The translations under genes were made by a program, and so were the position numbers. From a virus, in IMG/VR virus record IMGVR_UViG_3300028364_000170, positions 1 through 21,374 of that record: a stretch of DNA of 21,374 bases; one strand, 5' to 3'. Numbering within the stretch: position 1 is the stretch's first letter; the number at the start of each line of letters is the position of its first letter. A model generated the notes under the pieces. It saw only the letters and a list, made by a program, of their open reading frames with translations, did not search any database and was not told the DNA's origin. Shown one piece after another: positions 10,999-21,374 of the stretch.

Positions 10999-11798
10999 CA
11001 GTAGCTCCCGCGGATTCGGTTCAGTAGGTCGCGCCCTCGCGTTGCCTGCCTCTTGAAAAACGGCATGTCCAGAATAGCGCGGGCAACCGTGGCGTCTATC
11101 AATCCAATGAGGTCTCTCTCCTGATTAGGCCCCATGCCCATTGACCGGCGGCCCGGAAGAGAAACTTGGCGAGCGTATATAAAGTGTTGGATCATTTGCG
11201 ATCCTCGAACCTCGTAAAGGCCCCATTCATCAGTCTGCGGATTCACACCACTCTTGATGATCTTCCCCGCGCTTCTCTTTTGCCGGACAAACTCCTTGGC
11301 GCGCCCTACGGTATACGCTTCATCTGACACCGGGAACGCCAGCAGCTTGGCATTCTTTGGCCGGATGATGATTGGCCCGCGCTGGGCTCCAGAGATCGGG
11401 CCGTTGTGTATGGCGGCAAGCTCGCTCAGGGTAATCGTGCCACCCCTGACCCTTGTATTCCCAGCGGCTCCAAGCCCGATGGAAACAACGTCGCCACTCT
11501 GAACCACGGGCTGCATAGCCATCACAGCCCTTTGCAGCCCTCCGGTGTCGCGTAGCGCCTTGGCGCTTGAACCGCGGCCCGGGCGTCGCGTAGTAAGGCG
11601 GCTTAGCTCCGGCCACCTTGCTCCGGTTACCATGTCCTTTTGTTGATCAAAGGCGTTCCCGACTTCACCAGAAATATATGCGCCCATTAACAGCAGCGAC
11701 TGGCTGCGCTCATCGGGGCCAAGCAGCGCGCCCAAACGCAGCAAGGAACTTGCAATGGGTGAACCTCCTGCTAGGTCGATGCTCGCGCTGTCTGCCAT
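10998..11798 (-). CDS. Virion morphogenesis / tail completion protein (Mu gpG-like)
   Basis: A 266-residue neck protein placed directly after the gp36-like gene and overlapping both neighbours by one base. It shows the signature of the phage virion-morphogenesis family: WPELSRLTTRRPGRGSSAKALRDTGGLQRAV at about residues 62-92, that is W..L...T..R......L.DTG.L. Next come a beta-rich part (VSIGLGAAGN) and an 'AAIHNGP' segment at about 128-134, as in members reading 'A..hq.G'. The C-terminus is basic and helical (FFKRQATRGRDLLNRIRG). The protein is longer than typical gpG (~150-200 residues) because of extra sequence at about 140-220. It probably helps finish the head or tail so that the two can join. 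Confidence 0.75.
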   Translation of the reverse strand: MADSASIDLAGGSPIASSLLRLGALLGPDERSQSLLLMGAYISGEVGNAFDQQKDMVTGARWPELSRLTTRRPGRGSSAKALRDTGGLQRAVMAMQPVVQSGDVVSIGLGAAGNTRVRGGTITLSELAAIHNGPISGAQRGPIIIRPKNAKLLAFPVSDEAYTVGRAKEFVRQKRSAGKIIKSGVNPQTDEWGLYEVRGSQMIQHFIYARQVSLPGRRSMGMGPNQERDLIGLIDATVARAILDMPFFKRQATRGRDLLNRIRGSY

Positions 11799-12259
11799 CA
11801 GTAGCGCCTCTTGAGTCCGGGAAGGCCAGAGCCGCCAACCTGAGAGCGGACCCGAGCAAGATCAATCGTGACGATCAGCGCCGGGGCTTCTTGGTTTGCC
11901 TTTACTCTCGTTTCAAACGGCAACGCCATGTTACCGCTCGCGATCGCTTCCAAACGTTCTACGGTCAACCGGTAACTTTCGATGTCTTCACTCGTTCGCT
12001 TTGCAGGCTTATTGCTAAGCAGATTCCAGACCGCAAGCCGTGTCGCGTACTCTCTCAGAACCGGCGGCACGTAAGTAAGCGGAAGCAATGACACCCGGCG
12101 AACGTACAATCCAAGCTCTGAGTTTGCAGATTCCACAGCAGCGCACAAAAGGGAATCTACCTCAAGCCCCTCATCGTTGTTGCGGTCAAGCAGGTCAGCA
12201 AGCGCGTCCGATTTGAACCGTGCCCGCAAGTCAGCAGTTGTGCAGAAAGCAATTTCCAT
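11798..12259 (-). CDS. Head-tail connector protein (Mu gp36/DUF1320-like)
   Basis: A 153-residue protein matching the gp36-type neck/head-completion family. It opens with a TTADLRARFKSDALADLLDR segment, followed by acidic residues and a helix pair (LLCAAVESANSELGLYVRR) leading into LPLTYVPPVLREYATRLAVWNLL at about residues 58-80. This 'A...A..EI..Y......LPL....P..L......ia.y.L' layout is the hallmark of DUF1320. These proteins join the portal ring to the tail after packaging. The start ATG has an AGGAG box 9 bases upstream, and the stop overlaps the next ATG (TGATG). The C-terminus is rather long and basic (GLPGLKRRY). Confidence 0.8.
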   Translation of the reverse strand: MEIAFCTTADLRARFKSDALADLLDRNNDEGLEVDSLLCAAVESANSELGLYVRRVSLLPLTYVPPVLREYATRLAVWNLLSNKPAKRTSEDIESYRLTVERLEAIASGNMALPFETRVKANQEAPALIVTIDLARVRSQVGGSGLPGLKRRY

Positions 12260-12336: not shown

Positions 12337-12789
12337 TCACAACTGTCTGATGATTCCGCGATGAACAAGCATCAGCGGGTGATGCCCAAGGGCAACGATT
12401 TCGGACGTTGTAAACACTTTCCCTTCCGGGTAAAGGCGCTGGGTCTCTCGCCTATTGGTTGCAATGAATTGGCGCTCGCTTACCTTGGGGGCTTCAGCGG
12501 GGGCCTCTTCGATAACTTCTTCGATGGTTGCTGTGAATTGGCGCTCGCTTACCTTGGGGGCTTCAGCGGGGGCCTCTTCGATAACTTCTTCGATGGTTGC
12601 TGTGAATTGGCGCTCGCTTACCTTGGGGGCTTCAGCGGGGGCCTCTTCGATAACTTCTTCGATGGTTGCTGTGAATTGGCGCTCGCTTACCTTGGGGGCC
12701 TCAGCGATAACTTCTTCGATGGTTGCTGTGTTCTTCAAGGGAGCCGTAGCCCCCTTGAACTCCTTAGCAGGTCGCCCGCGGTTGGCCAT
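12337..12789 (-). CDS. Head-region protein with tandem 23-residue repeats
   Basis: A 150-residue protein starting inside the capsid stop (TAATG). A basic N-terminus (MANRGRPAKEFKG, with an AT-hook-like RGRPAK) is followed by four tandem units of the type TATIEEVIEEAPAEAPKVSERQF. Three are 23 residues long; the first in protein order lacks four residues. The last ~40 residues (YPEGKVFTTSEIVALG, then HHPLMLVHRG) form a non-repetitive C-terminal segment. The repeats are acidic, Pro/Ala-rich and probably extended. The position after the capsid gene corresponds to Mu gp35, and the C-terminal segment faintly recalls that small family, but I cannot confirm it. Role unknown; a head-surface or connector-associated protein is the simplest guess. 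Confidence 0.75.
   Translation of the reverse strand: MANRGRPAKEFKGATAPLKNTATIEEVIAEAPKVSERQFTATIEEVIEEAPAEAPKVSERQFTATIEEVIEEAPAEAPKVSERQFTATIEEVIEEAPAEAPKVSERQFIATNRRETQRLYPEGKVFTTSEIVALGHHPLMLVHRGIIRQL
12466..12729 (-). repeat. 69-bp in-frame tandem repeat array
   Basis: Three 69-bp units begin at 12466, 12535 and 12604. A fourth, at 12673-12729, is a 57-bp unit missing 12 bases. The three full units look identical by eye apart from the array edges. All lengths are multiples of three, so the coding frame is kept. Such near-identity implies recent duplication and makes copy-number change by slippage or recombination likely. Confidence 0.97.
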
Positions 12790-13766
12790 TAGGAAAGCGT
12801 CCCGGCAAACAGGAAGCCCGTGTCTTTGTTGCAGATCAACCGGTCAACGTACATGGACCCGGCAACGATGTCGGCGTCCTGATCTTCGGCGCGATAGTGC
12901 CGGACGCGAACGCCGTCCTGTTCACCACCACCAAATTTGCCGTTGCCATTCCAAGCGGTATGCAAACCAGTACCGTTGAACTCAAGGGAAGGAGCCTCAA
13001 CGCGGCAAAGGAACGCAAGCTGGCCCCAGCAAGGAGTAAGCACAGCAACCGCATCCTTCGCGGCCGTGTTGATAAACGCATTCTTCGTCACAAGCACTCG
13101 GTCGATTCCCAGCATACCAGCGAGCATGGTTGCCATTACGTCGGTGCTGTTGCCCTGCTGTATCGGACTGAGAGTGTAAATCTGCTTTTCCGTCACTTCG
13201 GTCGTGTTAAAAATGGCGCGCAGAACCTGCACGTCAAGGCCGAGGACGTTGGGGGAGACGCCCGTCCGGCTTTCGATCAAGGCAATTGCGGTCTTGATCT
13301 GAGCCAGCGGCGTACCCGCAGCCGCGCCCCACTTGGTGCTGGGCGTAAGGGTATACGCACCGCCGGTGTAGGCTGCAACCAGTCCGTCAACAAGGGCTTT
13401 TTCACGCTTGAGCGTAAGCAGCTTACCAACGTTAAGGGCACCATTGATGGCAAGTTCCGTTTCGTTTACGGCATTGGCTCGGAACTCATCGGGGATGGGT
13501 TGATTAACGCCCCACTTCTTGCAAAAGAAGCTGAGGTCTTTACTGACCTGAACCTCAATTGAGGGATACCTTGCGCCGGGACTTACCTCGGTATCAATCA
13601 ACCGCAGAAGCTGGCGGTTTGGATCAATGGAGGGGAGGATGCCAGACTGCTGAGCAACCGAGCGGATCGGAAAGATCTGATCGGCAATCAGCGTATATGC
13701 ACCGTTAGCAAGCGCGGTGCCGGTAAGGAAGCTGTCTGTATGGAACTGTTTCGCGTTAACGGGCAT
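12789..13766 (-). CDS. Major capsid protein
   Basis: A 325-residue protein placed directly after protease-scaffold and decoration genes, as expected for the main shell subunit. It shows a capsid-like layout: an N-terminal arm, a helical region with a KREKALVDGLVAAY segment near residue 120 (spine-helix position), and a P-domain/A-domain region with SRTGVSPNVLGLDVQVLRAI at about 173-192, where major capsid proteins typically read 'PN.lvl....v...l'. The C-terminus has a run (RVRHYRAEDQDADIVAG) typical of HK97-fold capsids. The ATG at 13766 has a good AAGGA box 8 bases upstream. Its TAA stop overlaps the next ATG by one base. No clear N-terminal delta domain is seen, consistent with a separate scaffold. 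Confidence 0.85.
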   Translation of the reverse strand: MPVNAKQFHTDSFLTGTALANGAYTLIADQIFPIRSVAQQSGILPSIDPNRQLLRLIDTEVSPGARYPSIEVQVSKDLSFFCKKWGVNQPIPDEFRANAVNETELAINGALNVGKLLTLKREKALVDGLVAAYTGGAYTLTPSTKWGAAAGTPLAQIKTAIALIESRTGVSPNVLGLDVQVLRAIFNTTEVTEKQIYTLSPIQQGNSTDVMATMLAGMLGIDRVLVTKNAFINTAAKDAVAVLTPCWGQLAFLCRVEAPSLEFNGTGLHTAWNGNGKFGGGEQDGVRVRHYRAEDQDADIVAGSMYVDRLICNKDTGFLFAGTLS

Positions 13767-14243: not shown

Positions 14244-14828
14244 TTACTTACCTTCTTTCGCGAGTTGATTGTTGGCCTGATTGATAGCCGTAGCGGGGTC
14301 CATTGACGGATTCTTGATACGGATGGCCGCAACACGATCAGTGAGCGCCTTCTCCTTAAACTCAATGCTGTCAGGGTTGGAGCCGGGCTGACGGCCTTCG
14401 CTGAAAGCGGCTTGGGTTTCGCCAACGGTGATGGAAGGCCCAGTGGTTACCGCTGCAATGGCGGCAACGTTGCGGGCAAGCTCAAGCATGGCGTCATCAA
14501 ACGTGTGCTTGGTCTTGTCACTGAACGTCACCACGCCACTCTTGCCGTTGCGGATAGACACCAGCTTACCAACGATGTTGGCCGGAAGATTGAGAGTCTT
14601 CACAGACTCAGAGAACATCTTGGACTTCATCTCTGCCATTTCGGCTCGGAGTTGCTCAAGCTGAGCGTCCTTCTCCGCAACGGCGGCAGTGACTTCGGGG
14701 GCAACGGCGGCAGTGACTTCGGGGGCAACGGGGGCAGGCTCGGCCATTGTCGCTGCTTCCATTTCTGCAATCTTCGCCTTGAGGGCGGCGATTTCTTCGT
14801 CTTTGGTAGCAATCGCTTCCGTATCCAT
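14244..14828 (-). CDS. Nested scaffold protein from an internal start (Mu gpZ-like)
   Basis: Within the protease gene, the codon for Met177 (ATG at 14828) is preceded by an AAAGG box 6 bases upstream. It lies just where the protease domain ends and the coiled-coil scaffold begins. Starting there gives a 194-residue protein consisting only of the scaffold part. In Mu (I/Z) and lambda (C/Nu3) the scaffold is made from such an in-frame internal start at the 3' end of the protease gene. The box and position are seen directly; actual use of this start is inference from those systems. Confidence 0.55.
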   Translation of the reverse strand: MDTEAIATKDEEIAALKAKIAEMEAATMAEPAPVAPEVTAAVAPEVTAAVAEKDAQLEQLRAEMAEMKSKMFSESVKTLNLPANIVGKLVSIRNGKSGVVTFSDKTKHTFDDAMLELARNVAAIAAVTTGPSITVGETQAAFSEGRQPGSNPDSIEFKEKALTDRVAAIRIKNPSMDPATAINQANNQLAKEGK

Positions 14829-15356
14829 GATGGACCTTTGTGCTGTTGGAGTGTTTAGAGCCCGCACAACGGCGGCCTCAATTTCTAAATTGATGCTAGG
14901 AGAGACAGGCTCATCCTCTGAAAAGTTGATGCTTACACCGGCGGCTTCGCTCATGCTGATCAGCGGTAAACCCTTAACTTCCGGCGGTTGAGCGCCAAGG
15001 AAAGTAAGCGCTCGCAGGTAGTAGTTGCCGGGAGAGTCTACGCCTTCCGGTGTCTGCCCGCGGTACAGTTCGATGGACCGGTTTTCGTAGGCCCCGCGCT
15101 TTACAAGCGGCGCAAATTCAGGGTCAAGAGCCACGTCCGCAAAGAGAAGGTTGCCAGCAACTCGCACAGTGCCTTTAAGCACCTCGCCCCACTTCGGACC
15201 TGATTGCGTGTGGTCGATCGTGACAGGCGCAACGTGCTGGCCTGCGTTGTAAGCGTCCGCAAGCGTCTGCAAATCCTTAGACGTATAGACGCCCTTGTCC
15301 CCGTAATCACCGGAGCGGAAGATTGCAACATTATGGAGAACCTCGCGTGTGCGCAT
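14244..15356 (-). CDS. Head maturation protease with C-terminal scaffold (Mu gpI-like)
   Basis: A 370-residue protein that directs procapsid assembly and then cleaves head proteins, including itself. The N-terminal ~140 residues read as a Mu gpI/herpesvirus-assemblin-like serine protease. His49 (VTIDHTQSGPKWGEV) and Ser94 (AYENRSIELYRG) are the likely catalytic pair. The C-terminal half is a scaffold: a charged coiled coil at about 182-203 (KDEEIAALKAKIAEMEA), an Ala/Pro/Val repeat at 207-227, a second coil to about 247, and a basic C-terminus. I chose the ATG at 15356 because GAGGGG lies 9 bases before it; the ATG at 15377 has no such site and sits inside the hairpin. The stop AAGTAA overlaps the ribosome binding region of the next gene. 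Catalytic residue assignment is by analogy. Confidence 0.82.
   Translation of the reverse strand: MRTREVLHNVAIFRSGDYGDKGVYTSKDLQTLADAYNAGQHVAPVTIDHTQSGPKWGEVLKGTVRVAGNLLFADVALDPEFAPLVKRGAYENRSIELYRGQTPEGVDSPGNYYLRALTFLGAQPPEVKGLPLISMSEAAGVSINFSEDEPVSPSINLEIEAAVVRALNTPTAQRSIMDTEAIATKDEEIAALKAKIAEMEAATMAEPAPVAPEVTAAVAPEVTAAVAEKDAQLEQLRAEMAEMKSKMFSESVKTLNLPANIVGKLVSIRNGKSGVVTFSDKTKHTFDDAMLELARNVAAIAAVTTGPSITVGETQAAFSEGRQPGSNPDSIEFKEKALTDRVAAIRIKNPSMDPATAINQANNQLAKEGK
14677..14724 (-). repeat. 24-bp perfect tandem repeat inside the scaffold region
   Basis: Two identical 24-bp units (14677-14700 and 14701-14724), followed by seven bases of a third copy, lie in frame within the protease-scaffold gene. 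They encode a repeated eight-residue Ala/Pro/Glu/Val unit (PEVTAAVA) between the two coiled coils. Being in-frame and flexible, gain or loss of a unit would change only linker length. Confidence 0.9.
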
Positions 15357-15394
15357 AAAAGCAAACCCCTCGCACACATTAGGAGCACGAGGGG
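15356..15394 (-). promoter_or_regulatory. Hairpin covering the ribosome binding site of the protease gene
   Basis: In the minus-strand RNA, bases 15394-15385 (CCCCUCGUGC) pair with 15375-15366 (GUGCGAGGGG) over 10 base pairs, including two G-U pairs, around a 9-base loop. The 3' arm holds the GAGGGG ribosome binding site used by the ATG at 15356, so folding would hide it. The stem is followed by UUUGCUUUU, so it also resembles a weak intrinsic terminator. On the plus strand the two G-U pairs become mismatches, which fits a role in minus-strand RNA. Confidence 0.5.
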
Positions 15395-15434: not shown

Positions 15435-15647
15435 CTACGGGTTAGTACGGTCGCGCGCTCGCTGAATGAATTTGCACAGGTCTGCATCTGAGGCAAACTC
15501 GTGGACTTCGGCGTCTTGTAGAGCGCCCCGCATTTGGAAAAGGGTAAACCCTAGCACTGGCCTCATGCACGCAAGCGCCAGCACAATGCGGTCCTTGGCG
15601 GTGCGTGCAATCTCTGCTTCAATAGCCTCAGCAACAGCACGATTCAT
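15435..15647 (-). CDS. Small unknown protein coupled to the portal gene
   Basis: A 70-residue protein whose ATG overlaps the portal stop by one base (TGATG), the same coupling used elsewhere in this operon, so I take this start and not an earlier one inside the portal gene. The sequence looks alpha-helical and soluble, with charged helices at both ends (AVAEAIEAEIARTAKDR at about residues 4-20, and ADLCKFIQRARDR near the end) and a hydrophobic middle. It contains no motif I recognise. It sits between the MuF domain and the protease-scaffold gene, where Mu relatives often carry small head accessory genes. A head assembly role is only inferred from the position. Confidence 0.6.
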   Translation of the reverse strand: MNRAVAEAIEAEIARTAKDRIVLALACMRPVLGFTLFQMRGALQDAEVHEFASDADLCKFIQRARDRTNP

Positions 15648-18259
15648 CAGAAGCGCTCCAGTTTGGAAACGTTGCCAGCAAGGCCAGCGGTTTTGACCGG
15701 AATAGCGCGGCCCGGAATGCGAAGAACAGGAACCATCAGGCACCGGCAGTTGTAAGAGAACGGCCCCCGGCCTAGCGCCTTCAGTTCGTCAGAGTCCAGC
15801 GGGAAGAACGACCCGACGAGAGCGCTGTGGCTTGGCCTTGTCCTGCTGTCGTTTGGATTGCTGTACCGGTATCCAAGAAGGTTGTCCCGGATAATGGGTA
15901 AGGCTTCAATCTCTGCACGCTGGGCTTCAAGAGCGTTTGCTTGCTCAGTTCGTGCGATCGTGTCGATGGTATTGCGCGCCACTCCGGGGAGTTTGCCAGC
16001 GTCTGCCTCTGCCCTGAGTATGTCTGCCATTTCCCGGGCCGTAGACCCTGCGGCAATGCCCTTGGCCAGTGAGTCTCTGATTGCTCCCACAACGCTGCTG
16101 GATACGGCCCCAGCGATTGCGAGCACTCTATCACGGATTGACTGTTCTACCACGCGGGCGGAAGGCACGATGGACGCGGCCAAGGCGGCCATGAATTGGG
16201 CAATGATCTTCGACAGCTTACTTTTCGGAACGCCACCACGGGTGGCCATCCACTCCGCGCCGCGCTTCCAGTAGGAGGGCAAATCGCTAGGCTCTGCAAA
16301 CTCCACTGATTTCGGGGAGTTTAGCTGGCTCTTGAATTGGCGGAAGGAAGAAGCCACGCCCACGAGAGCGGCGGCAATCATAGCATCTTCAATATCGCGA
16401 CTCGGCTTGTAAACGGTGCCCTTCTTTATCTTGCCGTTGTCCTGTATGGCCTTACCAATCAGCTTGGCAACTTCCCGTTCAAGGGCATCAGCAGTGCCCG
16501 CGGTAAGTGCAAACAACTGATCACGGGTTTGTGATTCGATGCGTTCGGAGCGCAGGTCTTCAGAGAACAAGACAAGACCTGTGCCTCGGTCGCTTTCATC
16601 GTCAGATGCTGAGTCTCCGCAACAGCCTTCGCGCATGGTCTCGCCCTCTTTACCTGCCGGGCGGATCATCTGATTATCTCGCCACTCACGCAAGGCCACG
16701 GGGTTGTAAACGATCCGTGCTCCGGCGCGATAAGCTGCATCGGGAATGAGTCCTGATTTAACGGCCTCGCGAAGCCAGCCCTTTGAACGGCCAACGATCT
16801 TGCACGCTTCATCAGCATTGACCGGCAACACGTCCGGAGGGGGAGGGGGAAGCGCAGGCTCTGCGGGAAGCTCTGGCGTGCCCAAGGACGGCCCCAAATC
16901 ATCCGCGAAGGGTGCAGGTCCACCGCCCATGCCCGGAGCCTGTATGATCACAGCATCATCGTCCGCGGGCGTTTGCATGTCAAAGACTTCGTAAAACTCC
17001 GTTCGCGAAACAGGAAGGCCGAGTTTTTCAGCAAGCGCATACCCCGCTTGAATCCACGTCAAATCCGTCGGATCGGTTACGTCCATGTTGAATTTGATCT
17101 TGGGGGTCGTATCAGTGCCGCCGCGCCAGTTGAGCGCAACGAACGGATCAACTGCGGATTTGTTGATTGCTTGCTCGATTCGCAAAGCCCAGTTCTTCGC
17201 GCGGCGTGAGCCAGTGCTTGCATGGACTTCGGCCTGTGCCCGCGTGCCATACTCGCTTTCCATGAAGCCGAGCGTTGAACCTACGATTACAGTGACTAGC
17301 TCTTTGATGGATTTGTCCATGGCGTCAAAGTGCGGCTGTGTACTGGAGCCGATTGCACGATCCTTGAACTCAAGCTCTACCCCGCTTGGAAGCACAAGGC
17401 CGCTCGATGTCTCGCTCAGGCTGTTAATGGTTGTTTGCAGTTGAAGCATCATGCGCTGCTGGTCTTGCACAGCGTCTGACTGTTCACCCATGAATCCGCC
17501 GGCCATTTTGCAAATGACGATTGGCATACCGTAGCGGCCAAGAAGGTCGTTAATACTGATCCACGCATTTTGCCAAGACTGCCACGGCACAATCAGGGAA
17601 TTGAGTAAGGACTCACCCGCCGGGAGTGAGTACATGCACGGTGACGTGCAGCGGATGAATTTGTAAGCTGGAAGCCTTGCGCCGGTACGGTAAAGCAGCG
17701 GGTGGCCTTGCTCATCGAAACAGAACAGGCCGGGATGCTGGTGCCGGAACTCGGTGATTAGGCAGTTACCGGCGGCGTCGATTTCCCAGATGTTTTCCAC
17801 CATGGAGAAGCCGTCTTGAGCCGCGCCCATGAACAGTGAGGAGATCAGTTCGTTGATTTTCGGGGAGAGGCAATCTTGCACAAGCTCAAGGAGCGCCTGC
17901 GCTTGGGGCGTCGGGTCGGTCTCGTCAAGCCGGAAAGACCAAGCGTTCTGCTGAATTTGATCGGATACGACGGCAAGGGCCGCCTTGATCCACGGGCAAG
18001 TTGACGCCATCTCATAATAAAGATCGTAGAGCTGTGGATCGTTGACGTATACATAATTGGCCGCGTTTGTGAGTGATCGCTTGGCACGAATGCCGCCGAG
18101 TAGAGTGGCGAAGGGATTATCAACACGGCCAAAGGCTCCGCCCATACCCGAGACGGATTTGAGCACGGAACTGTTGCCAATGCTGAGAGGCAAAGGACGG
18201 CGCGAGCGGGCCATCTCAGCTAGCATTTCCTCACCAGTAGGGGAACGATCGTTATCCAT
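15647..18259 (-). CDS. Portal protein fused to HTH segment and MuF head-morphogenesis domain
   Basis: An 870-residue protein holding what are normally two adjacent genes. Residues 1 to about 430 match a Mu gp29/DUF935-type portal: LLGRYGMPIVICK at 239-251, VGSTLG at 326-331 and EVHASTGSRRAKNW at 344-357. The portal is the dodecameric ring at the capsid vertex through which DNA passes. A Pro/Gly-rich linker (440-477) leads to residues 478-530, which read like an excisionase/MerR-type helix-turn-helix (NADEACKIVGRSKGWLRE, then ALREWRDNQ). Residues from about 560 on form a Mu gpF/SPP1 gp7-like minor head protein: ARTEQANALEAQR at 769-781, NPNDSRTRPSH at 801-811 and FSYNCRC at 834-840. The frame is unbroken, so this is a true fusion and not a run-on. 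It shares one base with the next gene (TGATG). Confidence 0.9.
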   Translation of the reverse strand: MDNDRSPTGEEMLAEMARSRRPLPLSIGNSSVLKSVSGMGGAFGRVDNPFATLLGGIRAKRSLTNAANYVYVNDPQLYDLYYEMASTCPWIKAALAVVSDQIQQNAWSFRLDETDPTPQAQALLELVQDCLSPKINELISSLFMGAAQDGFSMVENIWEIDAAGNCLITEFRHQHPGLFCFDEQGHPLLYRTGARLPAYKFIRCTSPCMYSLPAGESLLNSLIVPWQSWQNAWISINDLLGRYGMPIVICKMAGGFMGEQSDAVQDQQRMMLQLQTTINSLSETSSGLVLPSGVELEFKDRAIGSSTQPHFDAMDKSIKELVTVIVGSTLGFMESEYGTRAQAEVHASTGSRRAKNWALRIEQAINKSAVDPFVALNWRGGTDTTPKIKFNMDVTDPTDLTWIQAGYALAEKLGLPVSRTEFYEVFDMQTPADDDAVIIQAPGMGGGPAPFADDLGPSLGTPELPAEPALPPPPPDVLPVNADEACKIVGRSKGWLREAVKSGLIPDAAYRAGARIVYNPVALREWRDNQMIRPAGKEGETMREGCCGDSASDDESDRGTGLVLFSEDLRSERIESQTRDQLFALTAGTADALEREVAKLIGKAIQDNGKIKKGTVYKPSRDIEDAMIAAALVGVASSFRQFKSQLNSPKSVEFAEPSDLPSYWKRGAEWMATRGGVPKSKLSKIIAQFMAALAASIVPSARVVEQSIRDRVLAIAGAVSSSVVGAIRDSLAKGIAAGSTAREMADILRAEADAGKLPGVARNTIDTIARTEQANALEAQRAEIEALPIIRDNLLGYRYSNPNDSRTRPSHSALVGSFFPLDSDELKALGRGPFSYNCRCLMVPVLRIPGRAIPVKTAGLAGNVSKLERF

Positions 18260-18261
18260 TA

Positions 18262-20031
18262 TCAGAACCTAATCCGTCGGGATGTGTTGCCGGGTAGAGC
18301 TACCGGACCATTGGAGCGTTGGCCGTTGCTGCTTTGTTGTATAGCTGAGGGGCCGCGTGCGATCAAGCCCCGAATTGCAAACCATGCGGCCATTACTGAG
18401 TCAGGGGTTTCACCGGCACGCGGTACACGTTTGCAAGTTTGGAATTGGCCCATTGACTGACGCCATGCAGCGCCAACGTATGGATCCGCTGCCATAGACT
18501 CTGGCCACTGGATAAACTCACGCCGAAACAGGGATTCGATGGAAGGCAGGCCAACCTTCGGATCCATCTTGTTCGCGCCTGTGGTGCAGTTTTCAATTAG
18601 GTCAACAAGCCATTCCCCACGGCGGCGAAGGGATAAACGGATGTCTTCGATCCATCCCTTTTGCGTCGCGTTGTCTTCGCAGCGGATGCAGAGCGGCGTG
18701 ATTCCCCGGGCGTGCCCAGAGAGCACAATATCAGCCATGTCCTCAGATGTCATGCGATCCGAGAAGTGCCACTCAACGGGCCGGAAGATGCCGTGCGTAT
18801 CCAGTGACCACAGCGCCATCACGTTGCCGCCTGATTTGCCGCCCGCGAAGTCGCGCCCCCATACAAACGCAAAGCGGCGGCGCTCAAGCGCGCTGAATAC
18901 GGGAAGGCCCATTTCCATACTTTGGCAACCGTGAATGTCTGCAACCGTTCCGCCCTTGGCGCGGGTTGCCCAGCTTGCAAACATCCGGTCTTTATCGGAT
19001 GCGGGCTTGCCCTGAAACTTGCGGGCAAAGTCGGGATCGTTTACTTGCTGCTCAAGAAGTAAGGCAACGTTGTACACTTCCGAGTCTGTTGGAAACGGGA
19101 TGTTGAAAGTGGTTTCGTCTATACGGGAAACGCCGGGAACGCCTTCGATGATTTCGGCAAGGTCTGGATCGTGATGCACTTCACAAACGAAATGCGTCAA
19201 GTCCTCTGAAACGTAAATGAAGACTGTCGTAAAGCGCGGGTCTTTGATTAGCTTGTGAACGATGTCGTCTTCATGCCAGCAGTTTGAAAGCACAGCCATA
19301 CAGCCGCGGGATTGGTCATCCCATAAACGAGAGGCCCACTTGTTAGTAATCAGGTCATACGTGCGGTTGCGGCTTTCGAGCGTTCGGACGGATTCCGAGT
19401 TCTCCACGTCGTCAGCGATCAGGTAGTCGATGCGGCGGTTGAGGGCTTGGCCAGAGAATGCCACGGCCTCAGCACTGGCGTTGGCATCGTCCACAGCGTC
19501 AGGGCGGGAAACGAAGAACTTACCAGAGCGCCACGGGGAAACGGATCGCTTCTGACCTTGCGCGGCTAGTTCAATTTCCATCTGCTTTGCGGCTTCGGAG
19601 TTGGCGGCTTTGTCCGGTACACAGTCAGGGAAGACCGCGCGAAAGTTTCTGGAAACGATGGTTTTCCCCAGTTTGGAAACCATGCCTTCGGAGACGTTCA
19701 GGTCTCGCGACGTGGTTGCCGTGCGAAGCCCAAGATCGTTGCCCAAGGCCCACGCCGGGAGCGATCCGAACACAGCGGACTTGTAGATTCCGAATGGTGC
19801 AGATAGCACGATTGACCGGCGGCGCTCAAAGCATAGCTGGGCGGCTTTGCAAAGGACTTCGCCAATGGGTAAGGCAATACGCACGCGGACCTTTTCAGGA
19901 CCGGCAATAAGCATGAACTTATGGAAGGACTCGCGTGCGGCCTTACGATCAATCAAACTCACACCCTTGCCCATGAGCCCCCACGGGGAACGCTTGGTGG
20001 GCTCGAAGGTATCGGTGGTGCCTGTGAGCAT
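18262..20031 (-). CDS. Terminase large subunit (Mu gp28-like)
   Basis: The DNA-packaging motor: an N-terminal ATPase that pumps DNA through the portal and a C-terminal RNase H-like nuclease that cuts the genome. The 589-residue length is usual. The ATPase shows a divergent Walker A loop at residues 77-85 (SAPFGIYKS, Lys84), a Walker B at 203-208 (YLIADD) followed by Glu210, and a likely coupling segment at 247-252 (VLSNCW). The nuclease shows Asp394 (GRDFAGG), Glu452/Asp453 (RCEDN) and Asp544 (PDSVMAAW), spaced as in RNase H-fold terminases. The ATG directly abuts the stop of the membrane peptide, and the stop is two bases before the portal ATG, so the genes are translationally linked. No small terminase subunit is visible in the window. 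Mu-type similarity is inferred from the motifs and the gene order. Confidence 0.92.
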   Translation of the reverse strand: MLTGTTDTFEPTKRSPWGLMGKGVSLIDRKAARESFHKFMLIAGPEKVRVRIALPIGEVLCKAAQLCFERRRSIVLSAPFGIYKSAVFGSLPAWALGNDLGLRTATTSRDLNVSEGMVSKLGKTIVSRNFRAVFPDCVPDKAANSEAAKQMEIELAAQGQKRSVSPWRSGKFFVSRPDAVDDANASAEAVAFSGQALNRRIDYLIADDVENSESVRTLESRNRTYDLITNKWASRLWDDQSRGCMAVLSNCWHEDDIVHKLIKDPRFTTVFIYVSEDLTHFVCEVHHDPDLAEIIEGVPGVSRIDETTFNIPFPTDSEVYNVALLLEQQVNDPDFARKFQGKPASDKDRMFASWATRAKGGTVADIHGCQSMEMGLPVFSALERRRFAFVWGRDFAGGKSGGNVMALWSLDTHGIFRPVEWHFSDRMTSEDMADIVLSGHARGITPLCIRCEDNATQKGWIEDIRLSLRRRGEWLVDLIENCTTGANKMDPKVGLPSIESLFRREFIQWPESMAADPYVGAAWRQSMGQFQTCKRVPRAGETPDSVMAAWFAIRGLIARGPSAIQQSSNGQRSNGPVALPGNTSRRIRF

Positions 20032-20161: not shown

Positions 20162-20515
20162 TTATGTCGGGGGAGTGGTTGTGCCTGCGGTAAGATCCGC
20201 AGCGATGGTGTTGTAATTGACCGTCCCCGCGTTATTGTAAGCAACGATTAACATTGTGCCGACTACGTAAATGCAAGCGGACCCTGCGGGGATGTCAGCA
20301 GCAACCGGGGACGCGACGGAGGGCAGGATTGTGCGGATGCTGGTGATTGGCCCCGTGTTGGTCGCTAGGCGGCCCGCAAGGGCAAACCATGTGTCCGCAA
20401 GCCCTGCGATCTTCGCCGCCTCCTGCGCCGCGTTAGCCTTCGCCGTGTCCTCGTTATCCGCACCAGTGGCAATGGCCACAATGGCGCGTCCAAGTGGGGC
20501 CTCGGCTGCCACCAT
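20162..20515 (-). CDS. Unknown protein upstream of terminase, start uncertain
   Basis: This 117-residue protein is Ala-rich, with a helical first half (KANAAQEAAKIAGLADTWFALAGRLA) and a beta-like second half ending in Thr/Pro. It has no recognisable motif. The ATG at 20515 has no clear ribosome binding site. A much better site (AAAAGGAG, 7 bases before an ATG at 20558) lies upstream but in another frame, and that frame stops after 34 codons at 20454. Between that ATG and 20515 the main frame still reads naturally (SHKQWATSADQIM), so a one-base indel near 20550 may have separated the true start from the body. The gene sits between the fibre-like gene and a short membrane-peptide gene, where some phages carry small virion or lysis-linked genes. 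Function unknown. Confidence 0.5.
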   Translation of the reverse strand: MVAAEAPLGRAIVAIATGADNEDTAKANAAQEAAKIAGLADTWFALAGRLATNTGPITSIRTILPSVASPVAADIPAGSACIYVVGTMLIVAYNNAGTVNYNTIAADLTAGTTTPPT

Positions 20516-20550
20516 GATCTGGTCGGCGCTCGTTGCCCACTGCTTGTGTG

Positions 20551-20571
20551 ATGGACATTCAACTTCTCCTT
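20551..20571 (-). promoter_or_regulatory. Strong ribosome binding site and ATG out of frame with the gene it precedes
   Basis: On the minus strand an AAAAGGAG box stands 7 bases before an ATG at 20558, the strongest start signal in this part of the window. The frame it opens holds only 34 codons and ends at 20454. The downstream 117-residue frame is offset by one base. Removing one base just after this ATG would give a start followed directly by SHKQWATSADQIM and then the long frame. This suggests the natural start of that gene, now shifted by mutation or sequencing error. Confidence 0.45.
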
Positions 20572-20608
20572 TTCTAGGAAGGGGTTGCCCTCAGTGGGGC
20601 GGCTGTTG

Positions 20609-21374
20609 TCAGAACGCCTTGGCTTCATATTGGAGGCCGTAGGCCCACAGGTAGGACCGGTCTCCCACCAAAGCTGTGGGAAGGGTAATCTGGATGAATA
20701 GGCTGTCAAATTCTGTGGTCTGCACTGCGTAGGGAGTGAACGTGTTGGTGATCACCTGATTTGCCCCGGTGCCTATCCCGGCCACTGAGTAGAACCCGCG
20801 AATAGTGGGCACGGCATCCACCAAAAGCTGGGTAGCGTAGTCGATCCGCACAGTAGCATCCGCATCGAAAATGCCGTGCAGCCGGACTCCGGAAATCACA
20901 GTTCCGGGCTTGGAACTCACAGGTATGAAGATGAAATTGGTGAGTCCGTTAGTGCGGACGCCGCGAGGGTTAGAGTGGTAAAAGAACCCGTTGGACGCCG
21001 TGCCGTTGAAATTGTAAATGCTGAAGTCCTCCCACCAAGAGGCCACAGGGTCTTTCTTGATGTTGCCGATGCCTATGATGTCACCTGTCACTGAGGCGTT
21101 GCCGGCCACTGTCAAAGTGCCCGTGTGGGTCTGGCGGTAGGTAGGAGTCCCGCTCTGGATGGTCACAGCGGAGTTGCCGGTAATCACGCCCATGGTGAGG
21201 GCATCACCCGCCGCTACGGAGGTAGTGCGAATGGTGTGGTCCTCCTCCCCGTCACTGAAGAAGGTAAGCCCATCAATGTCCACTATGGGCACAAGCATAG
21301 TGTCTTGCTCTGCGAAGAGAGGAGTAGACCGAATGCCAATCAGTCCCTTGCCGCCCCGGGTGACAGCCTCTGTG
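20609..21374 (-). CDS. Fibre-like structural protein, C-terminal part (cut by right edge)
   Basis: The frame stays open to the right edge of the window, so this is probably the last 254 residues of a longer protein. An ATG at 21298 is the first one visible, but the reading frame before it has no stop and reads like protein. The segment near residues 60-90 has the alternating pattern (TLTVAGNASVTGDIIG) seen in beta-helical or triple-stranded tail fibre stems. The rest is beta-rich with many Gly, Thr, Asn and aromatic residues and ends in a possible jelly-roll-like domain (FDSLFIQITLP, then YLWAYGLQY). No signal peptide or membrane segment is visible. It lies just upstream of the terminase gene, away from the tail-tip genes. 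A tail fibre or capsid fibre role is inference from composition; I do not recognise the family. Confidence 0.55.
   Translation of the reverse strand, partial: TEAVTRGGKGLIGIRSTPLFAEQDTMLVPIVDIDGLTFFSDGEEDHTIRTTSVAAGDALTMGVITGNSAVTIQSGTPTYRQTHTGTLTVAGNASVTGDIIGIGNIKKDPVASWWEDFSIYNFNGTASNGFFYHSNPRGVRTNGLTNFIFIPVSSKPGTVISGVRLHGIFDADATVRIDYATQLLVDAVPTIRGFYSVAGIGTGANQVITNTFTPYAVQTTEFDSLFIQITLPTALVGDRSYLWAYGLQYEAKAF

Follow-up and report, generated by a model that had tools for sequence, protein, structure and literature searches.

A predicted winged helix-turn-helix in the linker of a fused Mu-type portal–MuF head protein

Introduction

Cryo-EM of phage Mu resolved the portal protein gp29 as a dodecamer made up of a crown, wing, stem, and clip. 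The C-terminal 124 residues of gp29 are absent from the virion, which the authors regarded as support for cleavage by the protease I (PMC11915804). In phage JBD30, the portal crown and wing are located inside the head (PMC11445458). The MuF protein gp7 of SPP1 binds the portal, is brought by it to the procapsid interior, supports infection at its start, and raises infectivity (PMC6316719). Fused portal–MuF genes have been published for Microbacterium phages of clusters EA3, EA5, EA8, and EB (PMC7302621).

Here, we analyzed the IMG/VR virus record IMGVR_UViG_3300028364_000170 over a stretch of 21,374 nucleotides, hereafter the window, in which portal and MuF parts are encoded by one frame with a predicted helix-turn-helix (HTH) between them. 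The portal family, the MuF family, and the gene order are the same as in phage Mu; however, Mu gp29 and gp30 (F) are two separate proteins without an HTH. The MuF domain is likewise shared with SPP1 gp7, which in contrast is encoded by a separate gene and has no HTH (PMC6316719). The Microbacterium phage fusions, compared here through their published description only, also join a portal to MuF (PMC7302621).

Results

The minus-strand frame at 15647-18259 comprises 870 codons with no internal stop, in agreement with the original prediction of a single unbroken frame running from the portal into the MuF part. Three Pfam matches were found in the chain, Portal_Mu (residues 78-427), HTH_17 (residues 482-530), and Phage_Mu_F (residues 727-842), which reproduce the predicted domain order of portal, HTH, and MuF, and PHROGs also assigned the chain to the portal and MuF-type head proteins. 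The Mu gp29-type portal core (residues 78-430; 16970-18028, minus strand) was recognized by Pfam, PHROG, and phmmer. The Portal_Mu match (PF06074) spanned model positions 1-335 of 336 (E 1.9e-41; 143 bits compared to a cut-off of 23.9), the PHROG 113 portal family matched with an E-value of 1.4e-38, and phmmer comparison with solved portals returned 9khx (E 2.8e-7) and 8rka (E 4.9e-6). The portal had been placed at residues 1 to about 430; its end was corroborated, whereas residues 1-77 (18029-18259, minus strand) represent an N-terminal extension, the Pfam match starting at residue 78. Judging from its family, the portal part would form a dodecameric ring.

The portal core is followed by a Pro/Gly/Ala-rich linker (residues 431-477; 16829-16969, minus strand), which is absent or much shorter in fusions without the HTH and whose composition (55% P+G+A, net charge -8) supports the predicted Pro/Gly linker. 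The putative winged HTH (residues 478-530; 16670-16828, minus strand, with the HTH_17 match at 16670-16816) was assigned by Pfam HTH_17, and helices were predicted in the fragment. A second linker, acidic and Ser-rich in composition (residues 531-563; 16571-16669, minus strand), is missing from the HTH-less fusions in the alignment. Residues 564-700 (16160-16570, minus strand) form a helical region without a family match that was delimited by multiple alignment with 12 other fusions and is probably the counterpart of their tail; a profile built from the tails of separate Mu-type portals detected no homology to it. The MuF domain itself (residues 701-845; 15725-16159, minus strand) was identified by both Phage_Mu_F (PF04233; residues 727-842, E 7.8e-13, 49.6 bits compared to a cut-off of 29.6) and the NCBIfam model phageSPP1_gp7 (E 1.6e-13), and the conserved C-terminal CRC motif of MuF is present as NCRC at residues 837-840. 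The domain is thus where it had been expected, at about residues 560-850, but MuF proper begins only near residues 700-727, and about residues 564-700 of that range belong to the helical region.

The strength of the HTH_17 match (PF12728) depended on the query. Within the whole chain, residues 482-530 scored 26.3 bits (E 8.9e-6), just below the 27-bit cut-off; scanned alone, the 51 HTH residues reached 32.1 bits (E 1.4e-7; model positions 4-50 of 51) and a 76-residue fragment 30.8 bits compared to the cut-off of 27. In a search of 50 phage records, HTH_17 rose above its cut-off at two sites only, the HTH of the fusion and its copy in the related contig L002 described below. HTH_17 is a DNA-binding-type family, although domains of this type are also able to serve protein contacts. 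The sequence of residues 478-530 holds the full pattern of helix, turn, recognition helix, and wing, and its net charge of +3 is set between two acidic linkers. Weak PHROGs matches pointed to the terminase small subunit and excisionase families. The HTH_17/excisionase/MerR-type winged HTHs, including the lambda gpNu1-like domains of the small terminase (TerS), share both the sequence match and the helix pattern; however, they are usually found as small proteins that stand alone or as regulators, rather than as inserts in a portal linker.

Prediction of the full chain without relatives gave a model too poor for use (pLDDT 36). The 76-residue fragment was predicted as four helices in HTH order with a moderate pLDDT of 59, and its fold matches were weak (no Foldseek E-value below 0.001; Z about 2-3.3) and mostly to winged HTH proteins, among them those of the MerR and excisionase types. 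The fragment model agrees with the sequence assignment without proving the fold, and surface charge is unproven at the low confidence of these models. The proposed excisionase/MerR-type assignment of residues 478-530 was right at the level of the HTH_17 match, and the weak fold matches agree with it. The idea that this segment is an ordinary clip or crown helix of the portal was rejected, because the segment falls outside the portal domain, has no counterpart in the HTH-less fusions, and matches HTH_17.

The same 870-codon frame was found whole in contig L002 (3300023242_000954), the sole close relative detected in IMG/VR. The two fusion genes differ in 39 codons, 31 of them silent and eight amino-acid-changing; within the HTH, three codon differences are silent and none changes an amino acid. 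The frame therefore shows no obvious decay, and a frameshift or assembly error as the origin of the fusion was rejected, since the frame is intact in L002. The low E-value, the complete helix-turn-helix-wing pattern, and the exclusively silent changes in L002 together make a chance HTH match unlikely. Only these two closely related contigs carry the HTH form; both come from near-identical phages, and L002 says little about the long-term conservation of the HTH. Just upstream of the terminase, positions 20384-21226 of the window differ from L002 within a tail-spike-like frame: two L002 blocks that are about 66 bases apart are separated by about 840 bases in the window.

All genes around the fusion listed here are encoded on the minus strand. 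The order is large terminase, fusion, protease, a cement/scaffold-type protein, major head protein, gp36-type adaptor, and tail genes. The terminase large subunit (TerL; 18262-20031; PHROG 38, E 4e-27) lies directly upstream of the fusion, and the head maturation protease (14244-15377; PHROG 976, E 2.8e-35), a candidate to cut the fusion, lies downstream. They are accompanied by the major head protein (12789-13766; PHROG 1005, E 1.2e-36) and the Mu gp36-type head-tail adaptor (11798-12259; Pfam Phage_Mu_Gp36, E 2.8e-17). Between the latter two, a 150-residue protein (12337-12789) contains a DNA tandem repeat at 12456-12706, with 3.6 near-identical copies of a 69-bp unit (23 residues, ...ATIEEVIEEAPAEAPKVSERQF...).

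Among MuF and portal relatives, 13 IMG/VR contigs have a single frame in which Portal_Mu is joined to an end that is MuF or MuF-like (L201, L207, L250, L272, L274, L277, L280, L281, L282, L288, L313, L325, and L340); the MuF part was detected by Pfam in 12 of them, below cut-off in L313, and by alignment only in L325. Together with the published Microbacterium phage genes, these contigs confirm that portal–MuF fusions are known in some phages. Like the window protein, they run in a single chain from a portal domain through a tail to a MuF domain; in contrast, they have no HTH (no HTH_17 match at E-values up to 0.05), their linker is 38-58 residues long, and they are 19-24% identical to the window protein. 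The latter has 128 residues from portal core to tail, and in the alignment with the 12 HTH-less fusions the extra segment appears as a clean insert of Pro/Gly/Ala linker, HTH, and Ser/acidic linker. In the portal tree, fused forms branch among separate ones with strong support, and this scatter suggests that fusion or splitting happened several times. The window protein sits on a very long branch, its place too uncertain to tell an independent fusion from a shared one. Three MuF proteins (L194, L211, and L254) match a C-terminal PBECR2 nuclease domain, L254 below the curated cut-off.

No other portal-HTH-MuF chain was found in INPHARED phages or plasmids. Searches of IMG/VR with the fusion protein, terminase, or capsid as query returned no HTH-bearing relative beyond L002, and none was present among 79 viral and 80 genomic Mu-type portals, 783 genomes, and 80 MuF loci. 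All of these searches are limited by their pattern-based design, and their negative outcome is not proof of absence. The HTH between portal and MuF is thus as unusual as had been supposed, and the same domain order was not found in other phages beyond the near-identical L002. Within the collections and literature searched, a DNA-binding-type domain in the portal–MuF linker appears to be new, the fusion itself being already known. Since relatives have no counterpart, a head of this type can in general do without the HTH module.

None of the 79 viral and 80 genomic Mu-type loci obtained from portal searches had a portal frame running on into MuF. One of them, L107 (Aureimonas sp. SK2), stands out by the unusual length of its Mu-type portal frame, whose 982 residues include an N-terminal extension. 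Of 122 non-redundant Mu-type portals, 37 (about 30%) have a CxxC motif in the linker that follows the portal core, and none has one within the first 380 residues. The motif is zinc-knuckle-like, often CPxCGxxH (in L006, L009, L021, L028, L116, and 32 others), and had no confident Pfam family assignment. Based on this distribution, the linker seems to be a site where small modules are gained and lost.

Discussion

We propose that the chain is a fused head-vertex protein composed of a Mu gp29-type portal, a flexible linker with a winged HTH, a helical tail, and MuF. By alignment with the Mu portal, the point at which the Mu protein ends in the virion corresponds to about residue 413 here, which assigns the linker, HTH, and MuF to the portion that is lost or disordered in Mu. 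From about this residue on, the chain would lie within the procapsid at the crown side, the location of MuF proteins in other phages. From the observations on Mu, JBD30, and SPP1 gp7, the HTH would be expected within the head, at the portal vertex, for the time of assembly at least; in the mature virion it may no longer be attached to the portal ring, given that the C-terminus of the Mu portal is missing there and is regarded as cleaved. With one MuF and one HTH fixed to each portal subunit, no separate recruitment would be needed, and the HTH could contact packaged DNA near the portal, helping to hold or order it. Alternatively, it could stay on the DNA if the phage head protease cuts the chain after assembly, as is thought for Mu. 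For the assembling procapsid, the original picture of a DNA-binding HTH on each of twelve subunits near the channel is plausible. We infer the position inside the head, DNA binding, cleavage, and any role in packaging or ejection; on sequence evidence and by analogy with these phages, the chances are about even that the HTH serves to contact DNA while tethered at the portal vertex within the head, from which the protease may release it.

It is rather doubtful that the HTH is instead a passive spacer or protein-contact domain gained by recombination, with no role on DNA. Such an origin would fit the relatives that do without the HTH, the flexible linkers that flank it, and the unrelated CxxC modules hosted by the same linker, but the helix-turn-helix-wing pattern is intact, and zero amino-acid compared to three silent changes, albeit small numbers, argue against it.

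Ejection of the HTH into the host with MuF, where it would act, for example, on a promoter, would parallel the many presumed injected effectors that are fused to MuF and portal domains (PMC5512222, PMC9503650). The three MuF relatives that match the PBECR2 nuclease, L254 with a score under the curated cut-off, point in the same direction, and cleavage as thought for the Mu portal C-terminus would free an HTH-MuF part. However, known MuF-fused effectors are mostly C-terminal enzymes, whereas this HTH sits between portal and MuF, and we consider such an activity in the host quite improbable.

The HTH could also be a TerS recognition domain moved onto the portal, which would then help to select the genome to be packaged or to dock it. 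The match of the PHROG terminase small subunit family (E 7.6e-4 for the HTH alone, 0.0074 in the whole chain) was better than that of the PHROG excisionase family (0.023), and the former family had no other match in the window at E-values up to 1. One of the weak fold matches was 7lw0, an entry whose title concerns motors for viral DNA packaging. Furthermore, no TerS-like gene adjoining TerL was seen in the window or L002, whereas TerS lies just upstream of TerL in the Mu-like POA1180, B23, and martha 12B12. On the other hand, HTH_17 (E 1.4e-7) fits the segment far better, and the small-subunit family probably matches only as a generic HTH; against chain residues 480-557, PHROG 57 aligned at model positions 13-76 of 199 only (E 0.0074). 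The record, 21.4 kb long, may be a fragment, so TerS could lie elsewhere. TerS is also a separate protein working with TerL, unlike the HTH here, which belongs to the portal chain. The docking site of the terminase is the outer, clip side of the portal, whereas the portal C-terminus is found at the inner, crown side; an HTH on the assembled portal would therefore face the wrong side relative to the terminase, which weakens a TerS-like role. We regard this origin as very improbable, less likely than a DNA-contacting module inside the head. That the portal itself carries a sequence-reading domain for phage DNA, replacing or supplementing the small terminase, is highly improbable; if true, the gate of the packaging motor would itself be a reader of DNA sequence.

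If the DNA-contacting module proposed above does bind DNA, it would be a naturally occurring probe, fixed by covalent linkage, for the way in which the portal vertex holds DNA. Its position also fits a view of the Mu-type portal linker as a host of exchangeable small modules, of which the CxxC motif in about 30% of relatives would be another.
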